64,000 nt of DNA from Brevundimonas mediterranea (lineage in GTDB: Bacteria > Pseudomonadota > Alphaproteobacteria > Caulobacterales > Caulobacteraceae): positions 1 to 64,000 of the forward strand of contig NZ_JACIDA010000003.1 in assembly GCF_014196125.1 (NCBI RefSeq). The letters run 5' to 3'. Under the pieces are notes generated by a model. That model did no database searches. It was not told the origin of the DNA and saw only the letters and a list, made by a program, of their open reading frames with translations. The position numbers and the translations under genes were made by a program. Positions 55,526-64,000 of this stretch are shown here, piece after piece (within the stretch, counting starts at the first letter, position 1; the number at the start of each line of letters is the position of its first letter).

Positions 55526-57025
55526 TCACCCCGCCGGACACACCTTTGCGACATAACCCGCATGAGACGGCATGAGGGCGACGCACTTTCCGATGACGGC
55601 TTCCACGTCCGCCAGGAACCGCTCGATCTCCGCCTCGGGCGTCACATCGACCAGCGGATCATAGCCGGCCGGGATCATCCCCTGCCCCAGCAGCACCTGG
55701 ATCCAGCTTTCCTCGGCGAACAATTCGTCGTCCTCGCGGAAGATCCGACCGTTGGCGCGGAACAGGTCGATCTTCCGCTCCAGCGTCACAGGGACATCCA
55801 TATCGCGGCAATAGCGCCAGAACGGCGTGTCGTCGCGTTCCGTGGCCTTGTAATGCAGGATGATGAAGTCGCGGATCCGCTCGTATTCGAAATCGGTCTG
55901 ACGGTTGAACTCGGCGATGGTGGCGGGATCGAAGCCGGCGTCCGGCATCATCCGCACCAGTCGGATCAGCACCGACTGGATCAGGTGCAGGCTGGTCGAT
56001 TCCAAGGGTTCCAGAAAGCCCGAGGCCAGGCCCGCCGCCACGCAGTTGCGGTTCCAGATCTGGCGGCGCTTGCCGGCGACGAAACGAATGCGGTTCGGCT
56101 CGGCCATCTGGGCGCCGTCCAGGTGCGACAGCAGGATCCGCTCGGCCTCGTCGTCGTCCATATGGCGGCTGGAATAGACGTGCCCGTTGCCCGTGCGGTG
56201 CTGAAGCGGAATACGCCACTGCCAGCCTGCCGGCCTGGCGGTCGAGCGGGTGTAGGGCGTAAAGGGTTCGGTCCGCGCGCAGGGCACGGCCATGGCCCGG
56301 TCGCACGGCAGCCAATGGGACCAGTCCTCGTACCCGGTCTTCATCGCCTGTTCGATGATCAGCCCGCGGAACCCCGAGCAGTCAATGAACAGGTCGGCCG
56401 ATGCGACCGCTCCATCCTCCAGCGTGACCGACTCCACAAATCCGTCCTCGGGCCTGAGTTGCACCGAGACGACCTTGCCCTCGCGACGTCGCACGCCCGC
56501 CGCCTCGGACATGCCGCGCAGATATCTGGCGTAGAGGCCGGCGTCGAAATGGAAGGCGTGGGCGATATGGCCCAACGGCGAGGTCGGTCGTTTCGGATCG
56601 GCGCGCATGAAGCGGTTCTGCAGGGCCGCCGCCGTATTGATCGAATAGGCGGCAAGGTCTGACGCCTTCCCCGCAGCCCGCATCTTCAGCCAGTACTGAT
56701 GGCAGCGCAGCCATTCCAGGTCCCGGCCGATGACGCCGAAGCCGTGGATATAGCTTGATCCGATCCGGTCCCAGTCGACGAACTGGATGCCCAGTTTGAA
56801 GCTGGCCTGGGTGCGGCGCATGAAGTCGTTCTCGTCCAGACCGATCAGGTCGTTGAACGTCTTGATCGCCGGGATCGTCGCCTCGCCCACCCCGATCGTG
56901 CCGATGGCTTCGGACTCGATCAGGGTGATCTCGTACAGCCCCTTGAACAGTTTGGAGAACAGGGCGGCGGCCATCCAGCCAGCGGAGCCTCCGCCGACGA
57001 TCAGGATTGTCTTCAGCTGCCGCAC
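55526..57025 (-). CDS. Flavin-dependent tryptophan halogenase family protein
   Basis: A 499-residue flavoprotein. The N-terminal FAD motif is VGGGSAGWMAAALFSK. The halogenase catalytic Lys is in ASFKLGIQFVDW, and the WxWxIP signature appears as GWQWRIPLQHRTGNGHVYS. EPLESTSLHLIQ supplies the Ser-Glu pair that positions halide and substrate. The start is GTG 57025, chosen because the family N-terminus begins there and GGGGGCGG lies just upstream. It is last in the operon after the GH3 gene (19-base gap). Members in TonB-receptor carbohydrate loci may act on other aromatics or be modified for another use; substrate unknown. Confidence 0.87.
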   Translation of the reverse strand: MRQLKTILIVGGGSAGWMAAALFSKLFKGLYEITLIESEAIGTIGVGEATIPAIKTFNDLIGLDENDFMRRTQASFKLGIQFVDWDRIGSSYIHGFGVIGRDLEWLRCHQYWLKMRAAGKASDLAAYSINTAAALQNRFMRADPKRPTSPLGHIAHAFHFDAGLYARYLRGMSEAAGVRRREGKVVSVQLRPEDGFVESVTLEDGAVASADLFIDCSGFRGLIIEQAMKTGYEDWSHWLPCDRAMAVPCARTEPFTPYTRSTARPAGWQWRIPLQHRTGNGHVYSSRHMDDDEAERILLSHLDGAQMAEPNRIRFVAGKRRQIWNRNCVAAGLASGFLEPLESTSLHLIQSVLIRLVRMMPDAGFDPATIAEFNRQTDFEYERIRDFIILHYKATERDDTPFWRYCRDMDVPVTLERKIDLFRANGRIFREDDELFAEESWIQVLLGQGMIPAGYDPLVDVTPEAEIERFLADVEAVIGKCVALMPSHAGYVAKVCPAG

Positions 57026-57044
57026 ATCCGCCCCCAAAACACGG

Positions 57045-59000
57045 TCAGTCGGCAGCGTCGCAGGCGCCGGGGGTGGTCGGCAAGGGCAGTTCCCCCGTCG
57101 TCGCGGGCCGGGCGTAGCTGAGGCCAAAGCCCCGCGCGAACTGCACCACGTCGCCCGCATGCTCGCCGGTGCTGCAGGCCGACCCCGGCCAGGCGAAGGA
57201 CAGGCGTCCGGTGAAGTCATAGCGACCACCCGACAAGACATCGGCCAGGCCGGCCCCCTCGGTGCCGGGCAGGAAGGCCGCGACGAAGGCGTCCGACAGA
57301 TTGATCAGGTCGTTGGCGTAGGCCGGACGGCCCGAATAGAGGACGGACACCACCGGCACGCCCTTGCCCGAGACCGCGTACAACAGGGCCAGGTCATTGG
57401 GACGAAGGTGGCTGTACTGGACCGGCGCGGGGAAGCGGACGTCGCCATGATATTCGGCATAGGGCGTCTCCCCCAGCACCACCACGACCTTGGCGAACTG
57501 CGTAAGGTCCACGCCGACGGCGTCCCTTGAATAGACGACATTCTCCGCCCCCAATTGCGCCTTCAGCGCCGCCAGCAGGGTGCTGCCGGTCGCAAAGTCG
57601 GCGTTGACGTTCTCAGTCCCCTGCCAGGTCAGGGACCAGCCGCCGGTCTGGTTGGACAGGCTGTCGGCGCTGTCGCCCACGACCAGGATCTTCTCGCCCT
57701 GAACCAGCGGCAGGGCGCGGTCGTTGTTCTTCAGCAGGACGACCGACTTGCGCACCGCCTCCCGCGCCAGATCGGTCGCGGCCACGGCCTCGGCCTGCCC
57801 GTTGTAGCGGCTTTCCGAAGGCGCATGATCGAACAGGCCGGAGCGCATCTTGACCCGCAGGATCCGTGTTACGGCGTCGTCGATGCGGGACATCGGGATG
57901 CGCCCGGCCTCAACGTCGGCGATGGTATTGCCGATGAAGGCCTTCCAGTCTTCGGGGACCATGATCATGTCGATGCCGGCGTTGATCGCCTGGGCGCACT
58001 CGGCCTTGGTGCAACCGGGGACCTGCTCGATCCCGTTCCAATCGGACACGACCAGACCGTCGAAGCCCAGTCGGTCCTTCAGCACGTCGGTCAGCATCTC
58101 GCGGCTGCCGTGCATCTTGCCGTAGTCGTGACCGGCGGCGACGTCGTTCCAGCTGCTGTACGACGCCATGACGGTCTGCACGCCGGCCTCGATAGTCGAA
58201 TAATAGCCGGCGCCGTGGCGATTGATCATCTCGCTGCGGGTAACACGGGCCTCGCCCTGGTCCTGGCCGTTGAAGGTGCCGCCGTCGCCCATATAGTGTT
58301 TGGCCGTGGCGACCACGTCGCCGTCCCCGGTCAGATCCCCTTGCAGCCCACGCACCAGGGCCTCGCCGTATTCGGCGACCAGCTGAGGATCGCTGGAATA
58401 GCTCTCATAGGTGCGGCCCCAGCGGCGGTTCTCGCCCACAGCCAAGGTCGGGGCGAAGACCCAGGTGATGCCGGTGGCGCGCACCTGACGCGCCGTGGCC
58501 CGGCCGATCCGCTCGATCAGTTCGGGATCATGGGCGGCGCCCAGGCCGATGTTGTGCGGAAAGAGCGTGGCCCCGGAGACGTTGTTGTGGCCATGGACCG
58601 CGTCCGTGCCCCAGATCAGCGGGATCTTCACCGTCATGTCGGCGGCGAGAGCGGCGTCGTGATAGCGGTCGGACAGGGCGGCCCATTCCGCGACAGTCGC
58701 GTGCTTGTTCATGGCCGGCCAGGCGCCGCCGCCGTTCAGGACCGAGCCGATGTAATACTGCGTCACCTCTTCCGGCGTGATGTAGCGGACGTCCGGCTGG
58801 GTCATCTGCCCCACCTTCTGCGCCAGGCTCATGCCGGCGACGATCCGGGCGATCCGCGCCTCCATCGCGGCGTCTGGAGCGTGGGCCGCAGTCAGGGCCG
58901 GCCAATCCGTCCGTTCCTGCTGAGCGGCGGCGCTCATCGGCGCCAGGGCGCATCCGGCCAGCAGCAGCAGCGGGAGAAGCTTGGTCTTGCGGAAGGTCAT
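57045..59000 (-). CDS. Glycoside hydrolase family 3 (beta-glucosidase / exo-beta-glucanase)
   Basis: A 651-residue GH3 enzyme of the ExoP type. The N-terminus carries a lipobox-like LLLAGC (Cys near residue 17), so it is a lipoprotein or periplasmic. The catalytic nucleophile is Asp320 (GLVVSDWNGIEQ) and the TAKHYMGDGG motif near 232-241 is conserved. The second (alpha/beta sandwich) domain follows, ending with CDAAD. It should release glucose from beta-glucan oligosaccharides. It is co-transcribed between the TonB-dependent receptor and the halogenase-like gene. Confidence 0.92.
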   Translation of the reverse strand: MTFRKTKLLPLLLLAGCALAPMSAAAQQERTDWPALTAAHAPDAAMEARIARIVAGMSLAQKVGQMTQPDVRYITPEEVTQYYIGSVLNGGGAWPAMNKHATVAEWAALSDRYHDAALAADMTVKIPLIWGTDAVHGHNNVSGATLFPHNIGLGAAHDPELIERIGRATARQVRATGITWVFAPTLAVGENRRWGRTYESYSSDPQLVAEYGEALVRGLQGDLTGDGDVVATAKHYMGDGGTFNGQDQGEARVTRSEMINRHGAGYYSTIEAGVQTVMASYSSWNDVAAGHDYGKMHGSREMLTDVLKDRLGFDGLVVSDWNGIEQVPGCTKAECAQAINAGIDMIMVPEDWKAFIGNTIADVEAGRIPMSRIDDAVTRILRVKMRSGLFDHAPSESRYNGQAEAVAATDLAREAVRKSVVLLKNNDRALPLVQGEKILVVGDSADSLSNQTGGWSLTWQGTENVNADFATGSTLLAALKAQLGAENVVYSRDAVGVDLTQFAKVVVVLGETPYAEYHGDVRFPAPVQYSHLRPNDLALLYAVSGKGVPVVSVLYSGRPAYANDLINLSDAFVAAFLPGTEGAGLADVLSGGRYDFTGRLSFAWPGSACSTGEHAGDVVQFARGFGLSYARPATTGELPLPTTPGACDAAD

Positions 59001-63561: not shown

Positions 63562-63575
63562 TGGAAGCGCTTCCA
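63562..63575. promoter_or_regulatory. LacI-type operator upstream of the GH30 gene
   Basis: TGGAAGCGCTTCCA, a perfect 14-bp palindrome, 41 bases before the GH30 start and 40 bases after the regulator stop. Identical core to the site at 62051-62070. Confidence 0.9.
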
Positions 63576-63614
63576 TAATGGCGCCGCGAGCGAGGTCGTC
63601 AAGCGTCTGCGTTG

Positions 63615-64000
63615 TTACGCGTGCCAGGCGCCGGCGGATTCCCGCACGACAACGGCGTGGGGCAAGGTCCGAAACGCCCAGTCCCCGGCGGCGCCGGTGA
63701 TGCGCTCCGACACCAGGCGTACCGCCTCACCGCCCATCGCCTTCAGCGGCTGGTGGACGGTCGTTAGTGGCGGCCAGACGATCGCGGAGACCGGCGTGTC
63801 GTCGAAACCGGAGATCGACAGGTCGCCGGGCACTTGCAGGCCGCGGGCATGAGCGACCGACAGCGCGCCCGCCGCCATGTCGTCGTTGGCGCAGATCAGC
63901 GCGGTGGGTCGGGGCGAAAGCGCCAGCACGCGCGCGGCGATCAAGCCTCCGGACCGGAAGGTGAAGTCTCCACGCTCCACGGTAAGGGCGTCGTCAGGCA
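63615..64000 (-). CDS. LacI-family transcriptional regulator, C-terminal part (cut by window edge)
   Basis: The last 128 or so residues of a LacI repressor's sugar-binding domain: LSPRPTALICANDDMAAGALSVAHARGLQVPGDLSISGFDDTPVSAIVWPPLTTVHQPLKAMGGEAVRLVSERI, the classic run ending the family. The N-terminal DNA-binding domain lies beyond position 64000. The two TGGAAGCGCTTCCA operators downstream are its likely sites, making it the switch for the GH30/receptor/GH3/halogenase genes. The inducer is presumably a beta-glucoside or glucose oligomer. Confidence 0.93.
   Translation of the reverse strand, partial: PDDALTVERGDFTFRSGGLIAARVLALSPRPTALICANDDMAAGALSVAHARGLQVPGDLSISGFDDTPVSAIVWPPLTTVHQPLKAMGGEAVRLVSERITGAAGDWAFRTLPHAVVVRESAGAWHA

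Follow-up and report, generated by a model that had tools for sequence, protein, structure and literature searches.

A flavin halogenase in a LacI-type glucan uptake locus of Brevundimonas mediterranea evolves with the TonB-dependent receptor of the locus

The first 64,000 nucleotides of a contig of Brevundimonas mediterranea (NZ_JACIDA010000003.1; this whole stretch is hereafter the window; the genome it comes from measures 3.41 Mb and is 99.7% complete) encode a flavin halogenase (HAL) at the end of what looks like a locus for the use of a beta-glucan. What is a halogenase doing there, and with which of its neighbors does it belong? A previous interpretation made from the letters alone (the sequence-only reading) had described a LacI-controlled unit in the order LacI, GH30, TonB-dependent receptor (TBDR), GH3 and HAL. 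Analysis of open reading frames and Pfam profiles (matches to PF04820, PF00933/PF01915, PF00593/PF07715, PF02055/PF17189 and a LacI sensor domain) confirmed the order, the families and the strand; all genes of the locus lie on the minus strand.

To find the partner of HAL, we calculated partial correlations of pairwise protein distances over 76 complete loci, of which 59 remained without near-duplicates. In the 59 loci, HAL correlated with TBDR at 0.73 (0.68–0.80 across 300 subsamples), compared with −0.08 for HAL and GH30 and 0.12 for HAL and LacI, whereas GH30 and LacI correlated with each other at 0.71 and TBDR and GH30 at 0.36. The distances form two groups, TBDR with HAL and GH30 with LacI. 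In the 41 non-redundant loci that carry the GH3 type of the window, where GH3 mostly sits between TBDR and HAL, the values were 0.75 (0.49–0.84) for HAL and TBDR and 0.40 (0.29–0.62) for HAL and GH3. Judged by these distances, the evolutionary partner of HAL is the receptor and not the sugar-cutting enzymes, and it is moderately probable that the function of HAL is tied to the receptor as well.

HAL was used as the query in a survey of one genome per species. It confirmed 96 loci, and the 80 best, which were named, come from Brevundimonas, Sphingomonas, Novosphingobium, Hyphomonas, Niveispirillum and other genera. HAL was at least 60% identical in 70 of them, and 58 of these spanned at least 17 kb. 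All 58 contained TBDR, 54 contained GH3 or its replacement type GH3b (counted together with GH3), 54 contained GH30, 53 contained LacI, and 47 contained all four. The operator described below, with a degenerate form allowed, stood shortly upstream of TBDR, GH3, GH30 or LacI in 50 of the 58 loci and before HAL in none of them. None of the 10 loci with HAL below 60% identity had any partner at the thresholds used. The same-strand gene directly upstream of HAL was GH3 in 51 of the 70 loci, TBDR in 17 and unassigned in 2, and all 68 assigned gaps were 250 nt or shorter. Gene order varied between TBDR-GH3-HAL, TBDR-HAL-GH3b-GH30 and TBDR-HAL-GH30 without GH3. In several Sphingomonas loci, an operator-TBDR-HAL segment is separate from LacI-operator-GH3b-GH30, and HAL remains with TBDR. 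Because HAL had served as the query, conservation was also counted from the other genes. GH30 was present in 30 of 199 family genomes, with HAL adjoining it in 24 and not in 6, and HAL adjoined 22 of the 27 best-scoring receptor matches (at least 767 bits; the best 27 of a longer list). In a class-wide sample of 385 genomes, GH30 reached the threshold in 2, both with HAL, which is too thin for a tally. By position and conservation across these genomes, HAL belongs integrally to the unit.

The sequence-only reading had also proposed matching operators, and two exact copies of TGGAAGCGCTTCCA on the minus strand agree with it. One lies upstream of GH30 (63562–63575), its first base being the last base of a −10 match, and the other upstream of TBDR (62054–62067), 2 nt past a −10 match. 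These two are the only exact copies in the whole genome, which holds 8 sites with up to two mismatches, the two exact ones included, and the same motif is present in the loci of relatives. Approximate operators with up to three mismatches were dropped as being at chance level (4 in the window versus 3.3 expected); hence, only the exact copies are meaningful, and none of these stands upstream of GH3 or HAL. The −10 matches belong to sigma-70-like promoters, consensus matches only, that read TTGACG-16-CATTAT upstream of GH30 (63575–63602, minus strand) and TTGCCA-16-TATGGT upstream of TBDR (62070–62097, minus strand). The region contains three promoter-like matches over both strands, two of them on the minus strand, versus a shuffled mean of 1.5 (sd 1.2). 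This count is near chance, and the argument therefore rests on where the matches lie and not on how many there are. A repressor bound at operators beside the −10 elements would block transcription. The candidate repressor is the LacI-family protein whose C-terminal part is encoded at 63615–64000 (minus strand), the rest lying beyond the window end; the whole gene (contig 63615–64793, 392 aa) includes the helix-turn-helix domain PF00356. With this domain, a sugar-binding domain and a palindromic, CG-centered operator in its own locus, the protein has the features of a LacI regulator.

Downstream of the operators, GH30 (62106–63521, minus strand) begins with a hydrophobic, export-type N terminus. 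It is followed by the 963-aa TBDR, which matches the TonB-Xanth-Caul type TIGR01782 with 552.3 bits (cut-off 310). The presence and place of the receptor were as first described, but its extent had to be corrected to 59093–61984 (minus strand). Next come the 651-aa GH3 beta-glucan exohydrolase-like enzyme (57045–59000, minus strand), also with an export-type N terminus, and HAL (55526–57025, minus strand), a 499-aa protein of the BrvH/Xcc4156 type with a GTG start and no signal peptide seen. HAL had been taken as a 571-aa open reading frame reaching 57241; we rejected that start because it falls inside GH3. The gap from the GH3 stop to the HAL start is 19 nt. An independent HAL promoter, named beforehand as one part of what would speak against the proposal, did not appear: a consensus scan of the region found no promoter-like match between GH3 and HAL. 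Together with the loci of other genera, in which HAL lies between TBDR and GH3 behind a single operator, this upholds the LacI-controlled beta-glucan unit with the halogenase included, and HAL almost certainly belongs to it.

Between TBDR and GH3 lies an intrinsic-terminator-like hairpin of 13 pairs followed by 7 T (59036–59064, minus strand), a feature absent from the earlier description of the locus. The 83-nt stretch folded here has a z score of −2.2, and 4 of 200 shuffles fold equally well. Of the 59 loci examined, 15, counting the window, have a hairpin with a T run 3′ of TBDR; the hairpin is common to near relatives, and differing ones occur in others. The hairpin of the window is likely an attenuator that keeps the output of GH3 and HAL below that of the receptor; alternatively, transcription could end there fully, with GH3 and HAL served by a promoter that the scan did not see.

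Is HAL a working halogenase? It matches PF04820 across the whole domain with 673 bits (cut-off 21). The GxGxxG and WxWxIP motifs, the lysine and the Glu-Ser pair have established roles in flavin-dependent halogenases, and HAL has all of them (G11–G16, W268–P273, K77 and E342–S343). The comparison of Lys, Glu and WxWxIP that had been suggested for this protein showed them conserved in the great part of the 154 halogenase rows compared, of which 149 are distinct: Lys in 149, the first Trp in 154, Glu in 146 and, in addition, Ser in 144. For HAL, the ratio of nonsynonymous to synonymous substitution rates (dN/dS) came to 0.06 and 0.12 in comparisons with two near relatives; with two more distant ones it was about 0.15. 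TBDR resembled HAL (0.04–0.17), and GH3, GH30 and LacI reached 0.24–0.33 against the two more distant relatives. By these ratios, HAL is under purifying selection. On motif retention and dN/dS, we rejected a decayed flavoenzyme with another reaction, and the proposal of a changed reaction is unsupported, the catalytic motifs being kept.

The best solved relatives of HAL are BrvH (533 bits), the Pseudoalteromonas enzyme 9luq (521 bits) and Xcc4156 (513 bits), with RebH and PrnA far below them at about 290 bits. The predicted model of HAL (predicted local distance difference test score, pLDDT, 93.5) superposes on Xcc4156 and BrvH with template modeling scores of 0.94–0.97, and the nearest named relative by HAL is Brevundimonas intermedia (97% identical). 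The Trp2 and Trp4 binding motifs of group A/B tryptophan halogenases, as written in PMC8269204, have no match in HAL. Its closest solved structures and its HxFG/ATxPxx motif type fit group C (BrvH/Xcc4156): HAL has HGFGV and ATIPAI, and the group C reference in that paper has HPFGL/HGFGT and ATIPTI/ATVPHI (PMC8269204). Activity has been reported for the relatives BrvH and Xcc4156 (PMC5945002, PMC8269204, PMC7336383), BrvH accepts indole and not tryptophan (PMC8269204), and the native substrates of BrvH and the Xanthomonas halogenases are given as unknown (PMC7336383). Taken together, HAL quite probably performs true halogenase chemistry. As a separate observation, tandem halogenase arrays beside TBDR include one member without Glu and Ser in 8 of the 154 rows (L064:6967-8466, L068:11089-12564, L070:11704-13179, L077:7204-8649, L149:8608-9990, L150:8557-9990, L151:8557-9990 and L153:6947-8473); the catalytic Lys is also missing in 5 of the 8, and these members are possible pseudoenzyme partners.

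The neighborhood of receptor and halogenase extends beyond this locus. In six genomes chosen by us, the source genome and five halogenase-rich ones, 70 PF04820 genes fall into 46 runs, and a TIGR01782 receptor lies within 3 kb of 38 of them, the chance fraction being about 4.4%. On the receptor tree, HAL adjacency clusters, with 10 changes versus a shuffled mean of 30.0 (minimum 24 in 200). Halogenase genes can be numerous in family genomes; the highest count among five genomes was 30. A scan of 65 of the 87 unassigned genes flanking non-glucan-type halogenases found alpha-amylase, glucoamylase, GH97, GH31, GH67, four Cupin_8 and DUF6445 genes. L063 holds a receptor, a halogenase and two amylases together, and L076 a receptor, a halogenase and GH31; in L069 a GH2 gene is near the halogenase with a receptor 3.9 kb off, and in L065 the glucoamylase adjoins an outer-membrane barrel protein of a different family. 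JmjC-like Cupin_8 and DUF6445 genes occur within TBDR-halogenase sets, and L150 has a SapC gene beside a further TBDR, some 9 kb away from its halogenases (coordinates of these genes: L061:9971-10975, L073:9685-10671, L150:11506-12189 and L150:20228-20965).

These neighborhoods bear on two other explanations. The first, put forward by the sequence-only reading, is that HAL modifies an aromatic aglycone or phenolic released from the glucan material; the apparent co-regulation of HAL with the glucan enzymes and the use of indole rather than tryptophan by BrvH (PMC8269204) would suit it. We found no specific support for such a role, since the distances of HAL follow those of the receptor, unlike those of GH30 or LacI. 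Related halogenases mostly adjoin receptors, in amylase and GH31 loci too, which makes an aglycone of this glucan a less likely purpose for HAL than others. Beta-1,6-glucan itself carries no aglycone. We regard this explanation as unlikely. The second, that HAL produces a halogenated compound for defense or signaling, or releases hypohalous acid, once a feeding site is found, gains from the same spread, as a general feeding response requires halogenases beside receptors for several glycan types. However, no biosynthetic cluster was found among the scanned neighboring genes, and co-evolution with one receptor is left unexplained, making this explanation slightly less likely than an aglycone.

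Co-evolution with TBDR and the widespread halogenase-TBDR neighborhood could also arise if the target of HAL were an aromatic side chain, modified before export, of the receptor it partners or of some other exported protein, and the JmjC-like Cupin_8 and DUF6445 genes in some TBDR-halogenase loci are consistent with this. An initial alignment suggested an enrichment of several Trp columns in HAL-adjacent receptors. Independent pairs on a tree of 103 receptors (36 near a halogenase and 67 not; 60 of the 66 remaining receptors included) then served to test the 7 columns (W, Y, F, H, C or M) whose excess was at least 0.3. At Y248 and F688 (window receptor numbering), about 2.3 of 8 pairs leaned with HAL adjacency versus 0.1–0.2 in the opposite direction, but none of the 7 columns was significant, the 8 independent pairs giving low power. 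Moreover, the five relatives without HAL retain every one of the six Trp that more than 80% of the 89 HAL-bearing receptors share. We consider receptor modification about as improbable as a defense or signal compound.

Several observations weigh against assigning HAL to the receptor. The correlation of HAL with GH3 is above zero (0.40), and in the 15 loci with GH3b the HAL-TBDR value of 0.95 is unstable (subsamples −0.19 to 0.98), the set being too small. These are distance correlations and not tree reconciliations, and block transfer and unequal rates can shape them. HAL is predicted to be cytoplasmic, whereas the enzymes and receptor of the locus work outside. A strong hairpin stands between TBDR and GH3-HAL, and because of it the co-induction of GH3-HAL with TBDR is not certain. 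Eight of the 46 halogenase runs lie more than 3 kb from a TIGR01782 receptor, 2 of them within 6 kb and 6 farther. LacI, TBDR, GH3b and GH30 persist without HAL in five genomes of one genus, which tells against the glucan-aglycone claim too, and one genome (G087) keeps an 88% identical HAL without its own receptor or GH30, next to an extracytoplasmic function (ECF) sigma factor, FecR and a different receptor.

The receptors of the five HAL-less genomes share 95–97% identity with the receptor of a sixth relative that has HAL. In this sixth relative, HAL is intact and diverged, and it matches the HALs of other glucan loci best. The HAL-less loci L330 and L332–L335, set against the HAL-bearing L331, show a clean absence and form a natural knock-out set; one further HAL-less locus has GH3b and GH30 only. 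On these gene contents, HAL is useful but dispensable, because five genomes retain the receptor and glycosidase genes without it. Its clean loss there and its solitary retention in one genome would also be expected of a passenger of little use in the locus. However, the dN/dS of 0.06–0.15, the retained motifs and the occurrence across genera despite shuffled gene orders make a passenger the least probable of the explanations considered.

The glycosidases point to the glucan. The nearest solved chain to GH30 is 5ngk, which we take to be BT3312, and its nearest named family is the endo-1,6-beta-glucanase NF053856; at 330.6 bits, below the cut-off of 700, the specificity of the endo-beta-1,6-glucanase BT3312 is only suggested, although the GH30 Pfam families are matched. 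GH3 reached no equivalog cut-off in the profile search, and its nearest solved relative is the exo-1,3/1,4-beta-glucanase 3usz/3rrx (587 bits). Our best guess for the substrate is a beta-1,6/1,3-glucan.

We therefore lean toward a beta-1,6/1,3-glucan uptake unit with an accessory flavin halogenase that functionally belongs to the receptor. A glucan oligosaccharide would free the operators from LacI, GH30 and TBDR would be strongly produced, and read-through past the hairpin would give a lower output of GH3 and HAL. GH30 would trim the glucan, TBDR would import the pieces, and GH3 would complete their breakdown in the periplasm. In the cytoplasm, HAL would convert FADH2 (from a general reductase), O2 and halide to HOBr or HOCl, and the hypohalous acid would pass over Lys77 to an electron-rich indole- or phenol-like molecule that may arrive with, or depend on, the cargo of that receptor.

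A second halogenase locus of the same genome (contig 128534–138373; L009:2534-12373) contains GH3, TBDR, a BrvH copy, a second halogenase and LacI. The BrvH copy is near-identical to 6frl (1151 bits), and the crystallized BrvH type thus sits in a receptor locus. Both HAL and this BrvH copy lie in LacI/TBDR/glycosidase loci, and this shared locus type suggests glucan as inducer and one receptor as partner and offers relatives naturally lacking HAL for comparison. The locus context gives a testable lead to the natural role of orphan BrvH-type enzymes and bears on family members rich in halogenase genes. More tentatively, the BrvH-type alphaproteobacterial halogenases may be a receptor-coupled class, each serving one glycan TBDR and modifying either what that receptor imports or some part of the uptake apparatus, and halogenation here would serve nutrient uptake rather than secondary metabolism. 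In the titles, abstract openings and passages covered, from a literature set with few subscription journals or preprints, we did not find BrvH-type halogenases tied to TonB receptors or glycan loci. Public annotation often places a ‘tryptophan halogenase’ beside TonB receptors, and the neighborhood may therefore have been noticed by others.

Two neighbors complete the region. A HipA-type kinase gene (window 54090–55418) is convergent with HAL, and outside the window a defense-like island (contig 65123–78014; L008:5123-18014) encodes a Fic protein, an SNF2-type helicase with a PLD domain, an Eco57I-type methylase and a GmrSD nuclease.

Among known systems, HAL resembles BrvH of Brevundimonas sp. 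BAL3 (PDB 6frl), with 49% identity and the same fold and motifs, but it lies in a different locus with its own receptor, whereas BrvH was studied as an orphan enzyme; the main text of the BrvH paper (PMC5945002), its gene-cluster figure being outside our check, does not mention TonB, a receptor, a regulator or a hydrolase. Xcc4156 of Xanthomonas campestris (PDB 6y1w) is the nearest structure by E-value, 47% identical and of the same group C motif type. PrnA, RebH, PyrH and Thal have the fold and catalytic motifs in common with HAL (30–35% identity among the best 50 rows) and differ in the tryptophan-binding motifs of groups A/B, which HAL is without. In the TonB carbohydrate-utilization (CUT) loci of Xanthomonas and Caulobacter, LacI, TBDR and glycosidases form one regulated unit, and to this plan the window locus adds a conserved flavin halogenase.

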